Assembly: GCF_003614185.1 (NCBI RefSeq)
Contig: NZ_KZ987724.1
Coordinates: 2,023,360-2,087,359 of the forward strand
Reading direction: 5' to 3'
From: Paenibacillus aceti
Lineage (GTDB): Bacteria > Bacillota > Bacilli > Paenibacillales > Paenibacillaceae
Length of the DNA stretch: 64,000 nt
The notes under the pieces were generated by a model. That model saw only the letters and a program-made list of their open reading frames with translations. It made no database searches and was not told the DNA's origin. Each line of letters opens with the position of its first letter. The stretch's first letter is position 1. The position numbers were made by a program, and so were the translations under genes. Below are positions 1,044-57,140 of this stretch, piece by piece.

Positions 1044-1060
1044 AACCAGTTAAACTGGTT
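1044..1060. terminator. Hairpin at the end of tnpA
   Basis: AACCAGT-TAA-ACTGGTT, a perfect 7-bp stem touching the tnpA stop codon at 1060-1062. There is no long T run on the tnpA strand, so termination is only possible, not certain. Confidence 0.4.
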
Positions 1061-1533
1061 TATTTCTTTTTGCTCCTGTTACTGCTAAACGGATCTTCGT
1101 ACTCTTTTACACTCAACTTATCTATTGCTTGGTCATGTGCTTCTTGTTCACGAATGTATTTTGCTACGGTTGCTTCATTTAGGCCCACTGTACTTACATA
1201 ATAGCCTTCTGCCCAAAATTTTCGATTCCCATATTTATACTTTAGTTGCGCGTGCTTTTCAAAGATCATTAGCGAACTTTTCCCCTTCAGATATCCCATG
1301 AATGTGGACACGGCTATCTTTGGGGGGATCGCTACCAGCATGTGTACATGATCTGGCATCATATGACCTTCCAGGATGTCCACTCCCTTATACTTACATA
1401 AACGTTTGAAAATTTCGATTAAGTCTTTCCTCACTTGATTATAGATCTCTTTCCGTCTATACTTCGGGGTGAACACAATGTGGTATTTGCACATCCACTT
1501 CGTGTGAGCTAGACTATAGCTCTTGTTTGCCAT
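1060..1533 (-). CDS. tnpA: IS200/IS605-family transposase TnpA (Y1, HUH)
   Basis: 157 residues, the usual length for the single-stranded-DNA transposase of IS200-type elements. It cuts and joins at the element ends using a tyrosine and a metal bound by the HUH pair. Visible motifs are the early strand KYHIVFTPKYRRKEIY, the HUH residues in PDHVHMLV (H62 and H64) and the catalytic tyrosine in ATVAKYIREQ (Y126). The basic lysine-rich tail SNRSKKK is intact and there is no frameshift, so the protein looks functional. No accessory TnpB is present. The hairpins at 926-944 and 1612-1630 are its probable substrates. Confidence 0.95.
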   Translation of the reverse strand: MANKSYSLAHTKWMCKYHIVFTPKYRRKEIYNQVRKDLIEIFKRLCKYKGVDILEGHMMPDHVHMLVAIPPKIAVSTFMGYLKGKSSLMIFEKHAQLKYKYGNRKFWAEGYYVSTVGLNEATVAKYIREQEAHDQAIDKLSVKEYEDPFSSNRSKKK

Positions 1534-7123: not shown

Positions 7124-7310
7124 TCTAACGATACGCAGTATCTCTATTTTACCCAAAAAAGGCTCCGCAAAATGGCAACGAAACAGAGTACCGCTATCTG
7201 GGCGATTCAGAAGCTTTAAGCTCGCTTTTCCTTGAATAGCGATATGGTGTTTTCGTTTGATTTCATTTACGGCTATTTTTGATAAAATAACAATCTGCTG
7301 TTTCGTTAGA
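7124..7310. repeat. 187-bp composite palindromic element, copy A (RRFF)
   Basis: Four degenerate 26-27-nt units: reverse at 7124-7149 and 7174-7199, forward at 7234-7260 and 7285-7310. Each forward unit reads AAATARCG, then a variable core, then GTTTCGTTAGA. Same-orientation units repeat every 50-51 nt and the inner pair is about 60 nt apart. Length and geometry are identical to the copies at 38461 and 56954. It fills the folD-xseA gap inside a housekeeping operon, 35 bases from the xseA start and 19 from the folD stop. Confidence 0.85.
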
Positions 7311-23274: not shown

Positions 23275-23328
23275 TCTAACGAACGTGGTAACGTCTTAGA
23301 AGAAATAACGATAACCCGTTTCGTTAGA
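23275..23328. repeat. Reduced copy (B) of the 187-bp element family: one R-F pair
   Basis: A reverse unit (from 23275) and a forward unit (23303-23328) of the same 26-nt type face each other with almost no spacer, giving an imperfect hairpin. Conserved ends TCTAACGA and TCGTTAGA are present; the 50-nt-spaced outer partners and the 35-nt centre are missing. It sits between the divergent yqhR and yqhQ genes. Confidence 0.7.
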
Positions 23329-36017: not shown

Positions 36018-38306
36018 TTATTGCTTCACTTCTGGCAGTGGTTGGAGCAACAAGTTGACAGACAAGTTACTGCCCGGTGCAGCTGTGAATACAAATTCAA
36101 CTGTCTGCTCGCGATCCCCTGTGCGGAACAAAACATTATTGTCATTCGGCCCGCTGAGCGAGCTTAATTGCACAATATCGCCATTCACCATAATAGAGCC
36201 AGAGTATCTTCCCCCACGTGGGTTAAATGTGATTAGTGTATTTGGAGCGACACGATTCAATTTAATCTTGTACAATACCCCAAAGTTACCAGCATTCAGC
36301 TTATACTCATTATTCTTAAGTGGGTCATGTCCTATCAGGTACGGGTCACTTGAATTATCTCCAATAAGAAGTCTAGTACGAGTAGTCCCCACTAGATCAT
36401 TGTATTGGAAATAACGAGTTGAATCCTCATACGTCCCTCTGTTGTGAACATCCGTCTCTAAATTTACAAGCGTTGGCTGTGCAGTAAATGGATCCTTATT
36501 AGGATCTATCATAATTACATCAAATTCTAACGATTGATCGCTATACATATCAGCAAATAGAGATATTACATCACCTTGCTTCATCGTAATAGCGTTAAGC
36601 TCTGTCAAGATGATTTTACTTTCACCTGGAGCAATCCAGATATCTTTATATTTATCACCAGACTGTAAAGATTTATAGTAGCGTTCAACCGAGACCTTGC
36701 CTGCAGCCGTAGCGTACTGACTAGGTCCACCAAAGCCAAGACTGGTTTGGGTTAGGCGAGTTGTCGTCTCATTCTTATTCGTAGCAATAACATACATCTT
36801 CATGTTCTTACCAGTAGAGTTTACATGGTGAACCATGAAACGCATAGAACCGCTCGCTGTTTCCTTATAAACTCTCCCCTCCGAATACACCGTCTCCGGG
36901 CTATTGCTGCGGATCAAGGTTACGGGATCGGAAGAAATGGAGTAGTTCACTCTTTCCCAGGATGGAACTGAGGAGCCATCGAATGTGAATTTCTCTCCGA
37001 CTGGAACGAATAACTTATTGAAGTCATCACGTTCATACAGGGTCTCGTTCGTAATCATAATCGTCTTCTCTACAGTGGATGACAGGCCGAAGGGGTTCAC
37101 AACCTTCAAGCTAATTGTCTTAGGTCCTGGAGTAAAGAAGGCAAGCGCCTTGTTATCCCAAACCCGTTCCTCAATACTCACTTCATCCGTACTTAGGTCC
37201 GTATAAGTGATCAGTTCCCCCATCTTATACGTATCCTTGTCAGTCGAGAAGTTAGCTACCGGTGGGGTATGCGGCTTAGCAACTTTAATCGTCATGGAGA
37301 ACGGGTCGCTCCATTGTCCATTGGAATCCTGTACTCGGTAGGTTACCGTATAAGTTCCCGGCTCCATGAACATATCCTGACGACCAGTCCACTCTTCATT
37401 CACAATCGGAAGCCCTGAAGGTGAAGATGAGCTAGTCACATATTGAACCTCTGTCTCTCCAGCGACTACTTCCTTATTGCCAATTGAGAAAGAAGCTACA
37501 GGCTTCGTGGACAGGTTCAGAATGACGCGCTTCCCTACATTATCGACACTATATGGAATACCAAGCGCCTTCGTGATCGCCGTCAATGGCACCATGAAAT
37601 TGTTCTTGGCAGAATAAGACTTACCTTTCATCTGAGTCACAACGCCATTAACCCGATAGTTCGTGGTATCTAGCTTGAAGCGAAGCTCGTCCGTGCCTCG
37701 CGTAATAATCGTCTCTTTGGTCTTATTGTCAAAAGAAAGCTGTAAACCGGCACGCTCCACGATCGCACGGATCGATACGTAGGAGACACCCTCCTTCACT
37801 TCCATCGGATAGCCGGCTTTGTACTCCTTGCCATTCTGGTACATTTTATTGCTATTCATCATCAGGACGAGTTGGCCACCTGTGCTGGTCGCATTCACGC
37901 TGTTGTCTGGGGATGTAACAGGCTCGGTAGAGCCATTGTCTGAACCATCGGCAGCATTACCATCCTGGCTCTCCTCCGTTCCAGCTGGCTGTTCCGCCTG
38001 GTTATCATCGACTGTTCCTTCCTTGTCTGTCCCCTCTGTCTTGCCGTTCTCTTCCGTAACAGATGTATCTTTATCGGACGACTCACCCTTATTCAGACCA
38101 TCCTCTTGCGTGGGATCAACCGAATTGTTGGCCTGAGCCTGAGTATCCGCTGCATTCGCTCCTGCATTATTCGATGTAACAGCAGCCCGCTGTTCAATTG
38201 CACTAACCGGATCCTGCTTAACCACTTCTTCAGCACTTACAGGAATAACCATTGCTAATTGTGAAGCAATAAAAATCGTCGTTATAATTAGTCTCTTGAA
38301 ATTCAT
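36018..38306 (-). CDS. Large exported stalk-domain protein with PKD-like repeats
   Basis: 762 residues. Signal peptide (about 1-25), an acidic Asp/Glu/Asn/Gly low-complexity region (about 30-140), a stalk domain (about 145-270; VSYVSIRAIVERAGLQLSF, FMVPLTAITKALGIPYSV), then two PKD-like beta domains (KPVASFSIGNKEVVAGETEVQY with PGTYTVTYRVQDSNGQWSDPF; PPVANFSTDKDTYKMGELITYT with TPGPKTISLKVVNPFG). The C-terminal 340 residues are beta-rich and unassigned. No catalytic motif or cell-wall sorting signal is visible. Probably a surface structural or adhesive protein. AAGGAG precedes the ATG. Confidence 0.85.
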   Translation of the reverse strand: MNFKRLIITTIFIASQLAMVIPVSAEEVVKQDPVSAIEQRAAVTSNNAGANAADTQAQANNSVDPTQEDGLNKGESSDKDTSVTEENGKTEGTDKEGTVDDNQAEQPAGTEESQDGNAADGSDNGSTEPVTSPDNSVNATSTGGQLVLMMNSNKMYQNGKEYKAGYPMEVKEGVSYVSIRAIVERAGLQLSFDNKTKETIITRGTDELRFKLDTTNYRVNGVVTQMKGKSYSAKNNFMVPLTAITKALGIPYSVDNVGKRVILNLSTKPVASFSIGNKEVVAGETEVQYVTSSSSPSGLPIVNEEWTGRQDMFMEPGTYTVTYRVQDSNGQWSDPFSMTIKVAKPHTPPVANFSTDKDTYKMGELITYTDLSTDEVSIEERVWDNKALAFFTPGPKTISLKVVNPFGLSSTVEKTIMITNETLYERDDFNKLFVPVGEKFTFDGSSVPSWERVNYSISSDPVTLIRSNSPETVYSEGRVYKETASGSMRFMVHHVNSTGKNMKMYVIATNKNETTTRLTQTSLGFGGPSQYATAAGKVSVERYYKSLQSGDKYKDIWIAPGESKIILTELNAITMKQGDVISLFADMYSDQSLEFDVIMIDPNKDPFTAQPTLVNLETDVHNRGTYEDSTRYFQYNDLVGTTRTRLLIGDNSSDPYLIGHDPLKNNEYKLNAGNFGVLYKIKLNRVAPNTLITFNPRGGRYSGSIMVNGDIVQLSSLSGPNDNNVLFRTGDREQTVEFVFTAAPGSNLSVNLLLQPLPEVKQ

Positions 38307-38460: not shown

Positions 38461-38647
38461 TCTAACGAAACACCATATCGTTATTCTAGCAAAAATGAAG
38501 GAGATGGGATTCTAACGAAACTCCGTATCATTATTCTGATGAAATACGGGGATAAAGGCTTAGATTGGTCTCAATAGCGATATCCAGTTTCGTTAGATTT
38601 CTAAATTGGCCTTTTTGGCGCAAATAGCGCTACCCAGTTTCGTTACA
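38461..38647. repeat. 187-bp composite palindromic element, copy C (RRFF)
   Basis: Best-preserved copy. Reverse 26-nt units at 38461-38486 and 38511-38536, forward units at 38572-38597 and 38622-38647; spacers of 24, 35 and 24 nt. Ends read TCTAACGAAA and GTTTCGTTA. Lies in the 419-bp gap between nagZ and the large stalk gene; a degenerate fifth unit may begin near 38410. Confidence 0.9.
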
Positions 38648-38725: not shown

Positions 38726-40354
38726 TTATTTGGTGACTTCATCCAAATTCAAGCTGACTGGAAGTTTTCCCTTGGCTGTGAGCTTGCCCATCAATACTTT
38801 GGCAACAGCATCCAGAGAGAACTGGCGATTCTCATACAAGCAAATATAAGTGCCTACATCCTTGAAGGACTTCAAGTCATATGGATTCCGAGTAGAGACC
38901 ACAACTACCTTGGAGCCATGCATACGGATCAGCGCATTCACCAGATGGCTCTGTCCCTCTGGAATTTCGCCTTCCGCTGTATAGGTGACCACCACGATTT
39001 GTTCAAAATCAGTGCTCCGCTTAAGCACCTCCAGCACTTCCTCTTCTTCTGGACGTGTTCCAATCACGGATAGGCTGATATTATTGCTATAAGGCTGCAA
39101 GGCGTTATACAAAGTATATTGATGTACCGAAGGCTCATCCACTTCGGTGCGATGCCGCAGCTCCGGCCAGATCACGAGCGTGGATTCATCCTTGCTAAGC
39201 GGCAGATTACCGGAATCATGCACAAGCGTCACACTGCGCTCTGCAGCTTCCCGCAACAGCGCCTCGCTCTCAGCTTGCGGTGTAAGTGGAACGGATACGC
39301 TCAAACGGTTCGTCTCTACCTCTGCATCCGCAGCAGCTGCAATCCGCTTAGCCTTCAGCTCCAATACCCGCTCTAGCGATTCATTGATTCTGTCCTCGCT
39401 GATTCGACCGCTAAGCACCGCTTCGCGCACGGCTTCTAAAGCCGCAACCTGATCAGTTAGGGTATGACTGACCAGAATAAGGTCAGCACCTGCTTCAATC
39501 GCCCGTACCGCTCCTTCGGCAACGCCGCAGCTCTTAGAGATGGCATGCATCTCAAGGCAATCTGTTACGATGACGCCTTCGAAGTTCATCTCCTCACGCA
39601 GCAGTTCAGTTAACACACGGTGCGATAAGGTAGCCGGAATTTCCTCCGGTTCAAAGGCCGGAAATATCACATGCGCTGTCATGATCGCATCGGCTCCCGC
39701 TTCGATTGCTCTGCGGAACGGCAGCAGCTCGATATTACGTAGCCGCTCCTTGTCATGAGGAACTACAGCTAGGCCAAGATGCGTATCTACCGCTGTATCT
39801 CCATGACCCGGGAAATGCTTAACCGTCGCGCTTACGCCCTGATCCTGGTACCCTCGGGTCGCCGCCACCCCATGCTCAGCTACCTTCTGCGGGTTCTCGC
39901 CGAAGGATCTCACCCCAATTACCGGATTCGACGGATTATTGTTCACATCCACACAAGGAGCAAAGTTCATATTGATGCCTAATGCCAGCATTTCTTCGGC
40001 AGCTAGCTTGGCTACGTTATACGTCAAACGAAGATCATCCACGGCTCCAAGCGTCATATTTCCCGGAATACGGCTGATTCCATCATGATCGAGCCGGGCG
40101 ACCATCCCGCCCTCCTGATCGATCGAGATGAACAGCGGAATATCGGAATGGCTGCGTGGAAGCTTCTGCAGATCGCGGGACAGCGCTGCAAGCTGCTGAA
40201 CCGATTCAATATTGCGGCGGAAATAGACGACTCCGCCAACATGATATTTCCCTGTCAATGTAGTTATTTGCTCATCAGGAGCCAAGCTCTGAAATCCACA
40301 AATAAATAATTGGCCAATCTTCTGCTCGAGGGTCCACTGGGTCAAATCCAACAT
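38726..40354 (-). CDS. nagZ: Beta-N-acetylhexosaminidase (GH3, NagZ)
   Basis: 542 residues. GH3 TIM barrel (about 1-330) with FISIDQEGGMVARL, the NagZ loop VKHFPGHGDTAVDTHLGL carrying the catalytic Asp-His dyad and the nucleophile in GVIVTDCLEMHAI, then a second alpha/beta domain (about 370-540). Removes N-acetylglucosamine from muropeptides during cell-wall recycling. No signal peptide, so it is cytoplasmic or non-classically exported. In Firmicutes it often sits beside a MurQ/transport cluster; here the neighbour is a two-component regulated sugar importer. Confidence 0.93.
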   Translation of the reverse strand: MLDLTQWTLEQKIGQLFICGFQSLAPDEQITTLTGKYHVGGVVYFRRNIESVQQLAALSRDLQKLPRSHSDIPLFISIDQEGGMVARLDHDGISRIPGNMTLGAVDDLRLTYNVAKLAAEEMLALGINMNFAPCVDVNNNPSNPVIGVRSFGENPQKVAEHGVAATRGYQDQGVSATVKHFPGHGDTAVDTHLGLAVVPHDKERLRNIELLPFRRAIEAGADAIMTAHVIFPAFEPEEIPATLSHRVLTELLREEMNFEGVIVTDCLEMHAISKSCGVAEGAVRAIEAGADLILVSHTLTDQVAALEAVREAVLSGRISEDRINESLERVLELKAKRIAAAADAEVETNRLSVSVPLTPQAESEALLREAAERSVTLVHDSGNLPLSKDESTLVIWPELRHRTEVDEPSVHQYTLYNALQPYSNNISLSVIGTRPEEEEVLEVLKRSTDFEQIVVVTYTAEGEIPEGQSHLVNALIRMHGSKVVVVSTRNPYDLKSFKDVGTYICLYENRQFSLDAVAKVLMGKLTAKGKLPVSLNLDEVTK

Positions 40355-56953: not shown

Positions 56954-57140
56954 CCTAAGGAAACTAGGTATCGCTATTCAAGCCAAAAAGAGCCTCGGAA
57001 AACTGTAACGAAACGGGGTAACGCTATCAAGTGCAAATAGTTGCTTAAAGTGTGGATTTAGCCCAAATAACGTTATGGTGTTTCGTTAGAATCAGAATGG
57101 GCCTGTTTTGGAGTAAATAGCGATCTGTAGTTTCGTTAGA
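56954..57140. repeat. 187-bp composite palindromic element, copy D (RRFF)
   Basis: Reverse units at 56954-56979 and 57004-57029, forward units at 57065-57090 and 57115-57140; spacers of 24, 35 and 24 nt, exactly as in copy C. Lies in the 508-bp gap between the HxlR gene and the sugar isomerase gene. The rest of that gap holds only AT-rich sequence and the isomerase terminator. Confidence 0.9.

Follow-up and report, generated by a model that had tools for sequence, protein, structure and literature searches.

A four-unit element in intergenic DNA

Within the window, the whole 64,000-nucleotide stretch of the Paenibacillus aceti genome analysed here, an element of two reverse (R) and two forward (F) units lies downstream of a beta-N-acetylhexosaminidase-like gene (38726-40354, minus strand) and upstream of an ORF at 36018-38306 (minus strand). 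This element and the related features of the window are as follows:

38461..38647, plus strand: four-unit RRFF element, left arm with G-type cores and right arm with C-type cores (unit scan and profile)
38461..38486, minus strand: unit R1 of this element (unit pattern scan)
38511..38536, minus strand: unit R2 (unit pattern scan)
38572..38597, plus strand: unit F2 (unit pattern scan)
38622..38647, plus strand: unit F1 (unit pattern scan)
7124..7310, minus strand: RRFF element with a decayed F2, between xseA and folD
56954..57140, minus strand: RRFF element (unit pattern scan)
23303..23328, plus strand: solitary F unit in a gap between divergent genes

The three RRFF loci, which had been pointed out in an earlier sequence-only reading of the window, were all present; the solitary unit at 23303-23328 was missing from that reading. 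A degenerate R-like unit can be seen by eye directly upstream of it. The pattern scan, allowing at most three mismatches, gave 11 unit matches in the window and none in 100 shuffles. The same 187-nt grid had been claimed for all three loci, and this was correct for 38461-38647 and 56954-57140, where R1, R2, F2 and F1 start at 0, 50, 111 and 161, but not for 7124-7310, whose decayed third unit (around 7235) carries a 1-nt insertion and scores 7.5, compared to 17-35 for its other three units. The element between xseA and folD (7124..7310) was also found in the same gap of three sister genomes, and none was found in their gaps corresponding to 56954..57140.

Copy number, geometry and anatomy

The strict 22-nt form of the unit matched 435 times in the whole 5.6-Mb genome of P. 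aceti and the reversed pattern did not match at all, revealing that the dispersal seen in the window extends to further copies. A profile search of 57 stretches (1.18 Mb, partly picked around unit matches) detected 258 units in 77 clusters, whereas the shuffled sequence, equally long, gave a single match. RRFF clusters with spacings of exactly 50/61/50 accounted for 42 of the 77 and six more were within one base per interval, the remainder being three-unit, single, longer or mixed forms; multi-unit copies were commoner than singles. When unit distances were plotted without constraint, peaks appeared at 50, 61, 111 and 161, so that the order and the spacings of 50, 60-61 and 50-51 read from the window hold across these stretches as 50, 61 and 50. 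Among 114 near-canonical copies (49-51/59-62/49-51) drawn from four genomes and one MAG, tandem-array repeats included, 101 were exactly 50/61/50. The 28 stretches chosen blind to matches (L082-L109, 560 kb) held 14 RRFF clusters, from which about 140 RRFF copies per chromosome are estimated by extrapolation.

The intergenic position of the window loci was also general, as only 1 of the 36 own copies with usable neighbours overlapped an ORF called by a crude caller (coding fraction 0.69). With the same crude caller, copies were closer to the 3' ends of genes (median 78) than to their 5' starts (median 187), and the element had the orientation of codirectional genes in 13 cases and the opposite one in 10. 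Thus, the unit is short, near-palindromic, extragenic and present in high copy number, and it occurs in inverted pairs and regular clusters, as in the REP/BIME/REPIN families.

A full copy of 187 bases contains four 26-bp units, AAATARCGAT-N5-GTTTCGTTAGA, in two outward-facing pairs on the 50/61/50 grid. Each unit approximates a dyad: its strong half, GTTTCGTTA, points outwards and its weaker half, AATARCG, inwards. Over 45 copies, mean pairwise identity was 70% for the entire copy, 83% for the units, 53% for the spacers and 25% for the flanks, in agreement with the modest identity between copies described before and, though weakly, with the proposed homology of spacers and centres. The boundaries of the copy fall a few bases at most from the outer units, save for weak signals at +17 and +70 (113 copies), and no clear decayed third unit per arm was found. 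Being inverted copies of each other, the outermost units (R1 and F1) provide the terminal inverted repeats typical of a MITE.

The 5-nt core of the unit (bases 11-15) is either G-type (ATGGT) or C-type (ACCCA). The two arms were of opposite net type, one G and one C, in 96 of 114 copies, of which 57 had one orientation and 39 the other. With this arrangement, both arms carry the C-rich core on one and the same strand, and the copy is thereby oriented.

Range and dialects

The own dialect of the unit was detected in 4 of 41 genomes of the genus, with 335 matches in the own genome, 405 in G003, 202 in G008 and 137 in G031, and in 16 of 393 genomes of the order, a sample without G003, G008 and G031. 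In the latter, the counts outside the own genome were 185 in G393, 24 in G285, 22 in G284, 11 in G110, 9 in G222 and 1-3 in the rest, the reversed control giving one match each in two genomes. The grid was found in three sister species, and also in two other genera and in another family of the order, to which G110 belongs. Of 20 stretches taken at unit matches in G110, G393, G284, G285 and G222 (three of the G110 copies coming from one duplicated block), 17 were exactly 50/61/50, one was 50/62/50 and two were three-unit copies on the grid. Compared to 52 own copies, 16 of these 17 copies were 92-98% identical in the core and 35-55% in the spacers, versus 25-27% for shuffled sequences, ruling out that the cross-genus spacers are unrelated.

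A sister dialect, AATAAGG-N8-TTCCGTTA, in which GTTCCGTTA replaces GTTTCGTTA, was present in 66 of 393 genomes of the order, with at least 10 matches in 18 of them; because about 20 genomes had one or two matches to its reversed control, single matches carry little weight. Four of the six sister-dialect loci read (L244, L245, L248 and L249) were RRFF with spacings of 50-51/59-60/50-53, L246 showed one unit at that stringency and L247 had a wider centre. The own genome had six matches to this dialect; R-F pairs at 60, 109 and 110 are seen at G000:C1:1050423-1050505, 5316430-5316561 and 5316999-5317131.

The grid doubles as a search pattern, TAACGRAAC-N64-66-GTTYCGTTA, which covers both dialects. 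It matched in 6 of 398 genomes of the class, with none for the reversed control, and these six were exactly the own-genus genomes of the sample, 31 other genomes of the own family being negative. The element has so far been found only in Paenibacillales. No description of it was found in titles and abstract starts of the open-licence literature on Paenibacillus repeats and no Rfam covariance model matched, bearing out its presentation as a dispersed element without an Rfam counterpart.

Conservation in place

Conservation at corresponding positions was analysed in the own genome, G003, G008 and G031, which are 82-92% identical over about 117-178 kb aligned. Thirteen pairs of copies in the same gaps were compared, of which six were judged orthologous (A, B in G003/G008, C in own/G008, D in G008/G031, F and J), a choice made after counts and alignments had been seen and resting on flanks often poorly aligned within 50 bp. 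In these six pairs, the 16 core positions per unit differed at 6/368, the variable unit positions at 44/230 and the spacers at 116/474 (18-32% per pair), and four indels were counted, including a 50-bp unit fusion. Detection of copies via their units misses the decayed ones, which makes conservation look somewhat higher than it is. A pool of nine pairs fixed beforehand, doubtful ones included, gave 27/560 versus 249/720 (Fisher p about 1e-42).

Left out of the six-pair sum were E, G, H and I, the second comparisons at C and D, and own/G003 at B. In E, G, H and I the flanks did not align beside the element, and these may be independent insertions; in H, 27/40 variable positions differed. Counter-cases also exist, as the core differed at 7/63 in own/G003 at site B, where the own copy is the decaying 7124 element, and at 10/64 and 8/64 in E and I. 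As an indel control, 14 windows of 20-30% divergence averaged 2.57 gap openings, with none in 21% of them, a weak control since these were mostly coding.

These comparisons indicate that the unit sequence, and apparently also the spacing, are conserved in place and that the copies are not simply decaying remnants. The exact geometry had been attributed to selection on spacing or to a common ancestor. Selection on spacing appears to be at work, whereas common ancestry alone does not readily explain the geometry, because spacers diverge by 18-32% with four indels in six pairs, and because cross-genus copies keep 187 bases at 35-55% spacer identity. Gene conversion among copies could be an alternative way of keeping the units alike.

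Folding and the search for a transposase

Conserved units in inverted layout could reflect a REPIN-like element acting as a single-stranded hairpin, of DNA or RNA, recognised by a tyrosine transposase or by an RNA processing step. This explanation, which we consider unlikely, fits the inverted layout, the excess of multi-unit copies over singles, the tandem arrays described below, the intergenic position, the dialects and the likeness to REPINs as presented in PMC3116915. It also fits the strong folding energy, as copies folded as RNA better than shuffles (means of -60.7 and, for the other strand, -64.8, vs. -36.8 kcal/mol; z of -4.9 and -2.7 for the window copy), although such folding follows from the inverted layout itself.

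Covariation, in contrast, was absent between arms and within units. The nine dyad pairs were paired in 661 units about as often as independence predicts, and a hairpin within the unit, with positions 6 and 12 forming G-U wobbles, was rejected, as paired counts equalled independence. Tests of 12,354 column pairs, made on 88 of 101 sequences, brought out no helix (largest z 5.5, at 13-160; most negative -4.8); antidiagonal 180 alone held two pairs above 3 (85-95 and 88-92), a possible apical loop. Variants of the strong half were matched in the partner arm in 0/48 cells in 87 elements, where independence predicts 0.26. Spacers 1 and 3 paired at 40% in the true register compared to 38-39% in the neighbouring registers 187, 189 and 190, while the remaining tested registers gave 17-36%. 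Moreover, the cores of the two arms are of opposite type in most copies, and so not complementary. Compensation of the dyad between dialects was dropped, since G024 mixes the halves. With neither covarying arms nor a supported helix, it is improbable that a fold is conserved. The absent covariation, the register pairing and the uncompensated variants led us to reject a long RNA or ssDNA hairpin as the conserved feature, and the structured RNA proposed earlier is not supported. The palindrome kept by complementary changes, a feature of REP/BIME/REPIN families, was not observed.

The hairpin explanation is also weakened by the results on transposases. REP_Tyr_transpos (NF047646) was above cut-off in none of the 41 genus genomes, with weak matches in 15 of them, those of the own genome being its 14 Y1 places, and none was detected at E 0.001 in G003, G008 and G031. 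The own PF01797 matches were 14 equal-scoring copies, of which the one in the window (1060-1533, minus strand) is of the IS200 family by NCBIfam; this Y1 transposase gene, present there and in 13 other places, is probably a recently active insertion sequence. Mobilisation by a REP-associated tyrosine transposase (RAYT) was thus discarded for want of a qualifying gene, and no cognate RAYT of the kind expected for a REP was found.

Turnover, arrays and mobility

Ten own clusters within a 142-kb syntenic block were compared with the relatives. Three own copies, those at 38461 and 56954 and the one that follows downstream (L074:996), lacked a counterpart in any of the three relatives, in which the gaps were about 150-265 bases shorter; since identity places the own genome as the outgroup, a single gain or loss accounts for each case. 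At site A (own L073:11033), the copy of G003 and G008 was at a different base and in the opposite orientation compared to the own copy, and these are best read as separate insertions. As lineages differ in orientation and base within this one gap, the family probably spreads.

Within the compared block, G003 has four sites with an RRFF copy or an array, each matched by a counterpart in G008; two of the four are tandem arrays in G003. Five RRFF copies at a 220-bp period are seen at L182 (G003:C10, about 2604997-2606063) and an RRFFF-type array at L181 (2585430-2586334), G008 having one RRFF copy at each of these sites. A weak single F of G003 had no G008 counterpart and an R...F pair (259376/259532) faced one R unit. 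In G031, a 50-bp fusion joins R1 and R2 relative to G003; such a fusion would explain the origin of three-unit copies ending at a unit boundary. In Paenibacillus sp. GM2 (L038, from 6700), five degenerate R units follow one another in the same direction, spaced 47-50 nt, a layout that differs from RRFF.

Three copies of G110 (L227, L228 and L229) lie within a shared block of 340-390 bp that is 91-96% identical, apparently because a larger segment was duplicated recently. The idea of an IS- or MITE-like carrier was rejected there, as the copy tested showed no terminal inverted repeat. A second dispersed sequence (GGAGCGGAGCGTACG ... CCCGGCTGAATTCAAGATTCGATG) lies beside or replaces the element at L161, which is the G031 gap corresponding to own L073:11033, in L061 near 12861 and in the right flank of L076:3287; by eye, it looks like a second repeat family in the same gaps. 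With one copy as query, no match of phage or plasmid origin was obtained, and viral contigs gave 10 isolated single-unit matches.

A plain MITE, non-autonomous and with four transposase-binding repeats, two per end, but without any role after insertion, would account for the presence and absence of copies at corresponding gaps and for the independent insertion at site A. It would also account for the difference between left and right arms and for the sharp boundaries, save the weak +17 and +70 signals. We nevertheless find it doubtful, since cores are retained in place at loci judged orthologous. Furthermore, target duplications gave no consistent signal in the 114 copies (1,008 length/offset settings; largest excess 8 vs. 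0.8, in one 3-mer setting), although old copies may have lost theirs; no autonomous transposon form was seen in the stretches scanned; and the best paralogue found for the 38461 copy, with 40 of 217 candidates scored, was 82% identical. A non-mobile array of host sites for a chromosome-organising (nucleoid or segregation) protein would suit the in-place conservation, the geometry and the extrapolated copy number, but is very improbable given the patchy distribution and the several own copies missing or differently placed in sister species.

A proposed four-site platform for a DNA-binding protein

The above results lead us to propose, with a probability of about 0.5, that the element is a BIME/REPIN-like dispersed element that serves as a rigid four-site platform for a putative sequence-specific DNA-binding protein. 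Conserved sequence and spacing without a pairing constraint point to a ligand that recognises a specific sequence, in the simplest case a protein on duplex DNA; such a ligand, its oligomeric state and a benefit to the host or to the element are what we infer. The protein, probably a dimer as judged from the dyad, would occupy all four sites in one nucleoprotein complex, because of which sequence and spacing would be retained after insertion. Copies would reach new gaps and then be reshaped by recombination between units. The patchiness of the own dialect (4/41 genus genomes), odd for a housekeeping nucleoid site, and the distance of 50 bp, which at 10.5 bp per turn makes 4.76 turns and not nearly five as supposed in the sequence-only reading, argue against this platform. 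Two options of that reading, a REP/BIME-like mobile element and a multi-site protein array, both fit and are merged here. Its observation was thus confirmed as real, and was even understated, whereas its interpretation is partly supported.

More tentatively, and with less than even chances, the element may represent a new class, a four-site protein platform of near-invariant geometry that occurs throughout one bacterial order in several dialects. Every dialect would have its own co-evolving DNA-binding protein, which would both move the copies and be recruited by them after insertion. Were this true, copies would be conserved in place yet patchy between species.

Comparison with known systems

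The ends of Tn7-, Mu- or IS21-type elements carry two transposase-binding repeats each. The element resembles MITEs with such multi-site ends in having two binding-site-like repeats per end in an inverted array, and differs from them in its in-place conservation, in the lack of a cargo form among the stretches seen and in the lack of a consistent target duplication.

Bacterial dispersed repeats are usually explained by the folding of palindromes and a RAYT. Here, with neither covariation nor a recognised RAYT, a high-copy family retains its sequence and spacing despite large divergence, and the question of what binds REP-like elements and why they are kept becomes directly testable with one 187-bp probe. 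As the RAYT and the complementary changes are both missing, we do not file the element as a REP, though it behaves like one.

REPs tagged with GTAG or CGTC, some of which form dimers with spacers of similar length and different sequence according to PMC3733652, where the words 'Paenibacillus' and 'Firmicutes' do not appear, are likewise families of short palindromic units, but the unit consensus of the element ends in neither tag. REPINs are described in PMC3116915 as inverted, extragenic, hairpin-forming REP doublets, singlets being less conserved. The element shares with them the inverted doublet as the common unit and the extragenic position, and differs in consisting of two nested doublets, without a RAYT and without covariation between arms. 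For BIMEs, PMC2817692 reports regularly spaced units in opposite orientations, intergenic location, more than 100 copies, tandem arrays and protein-binding roles, and infers complementary mutations in REPs. All of the first four traits are found in the element, but whereas BIMEs alternate single units, the element is RRFF on one near-invariant four-unit grid, has no recognised RAYT, and conserves its sequence rather than its pairing.
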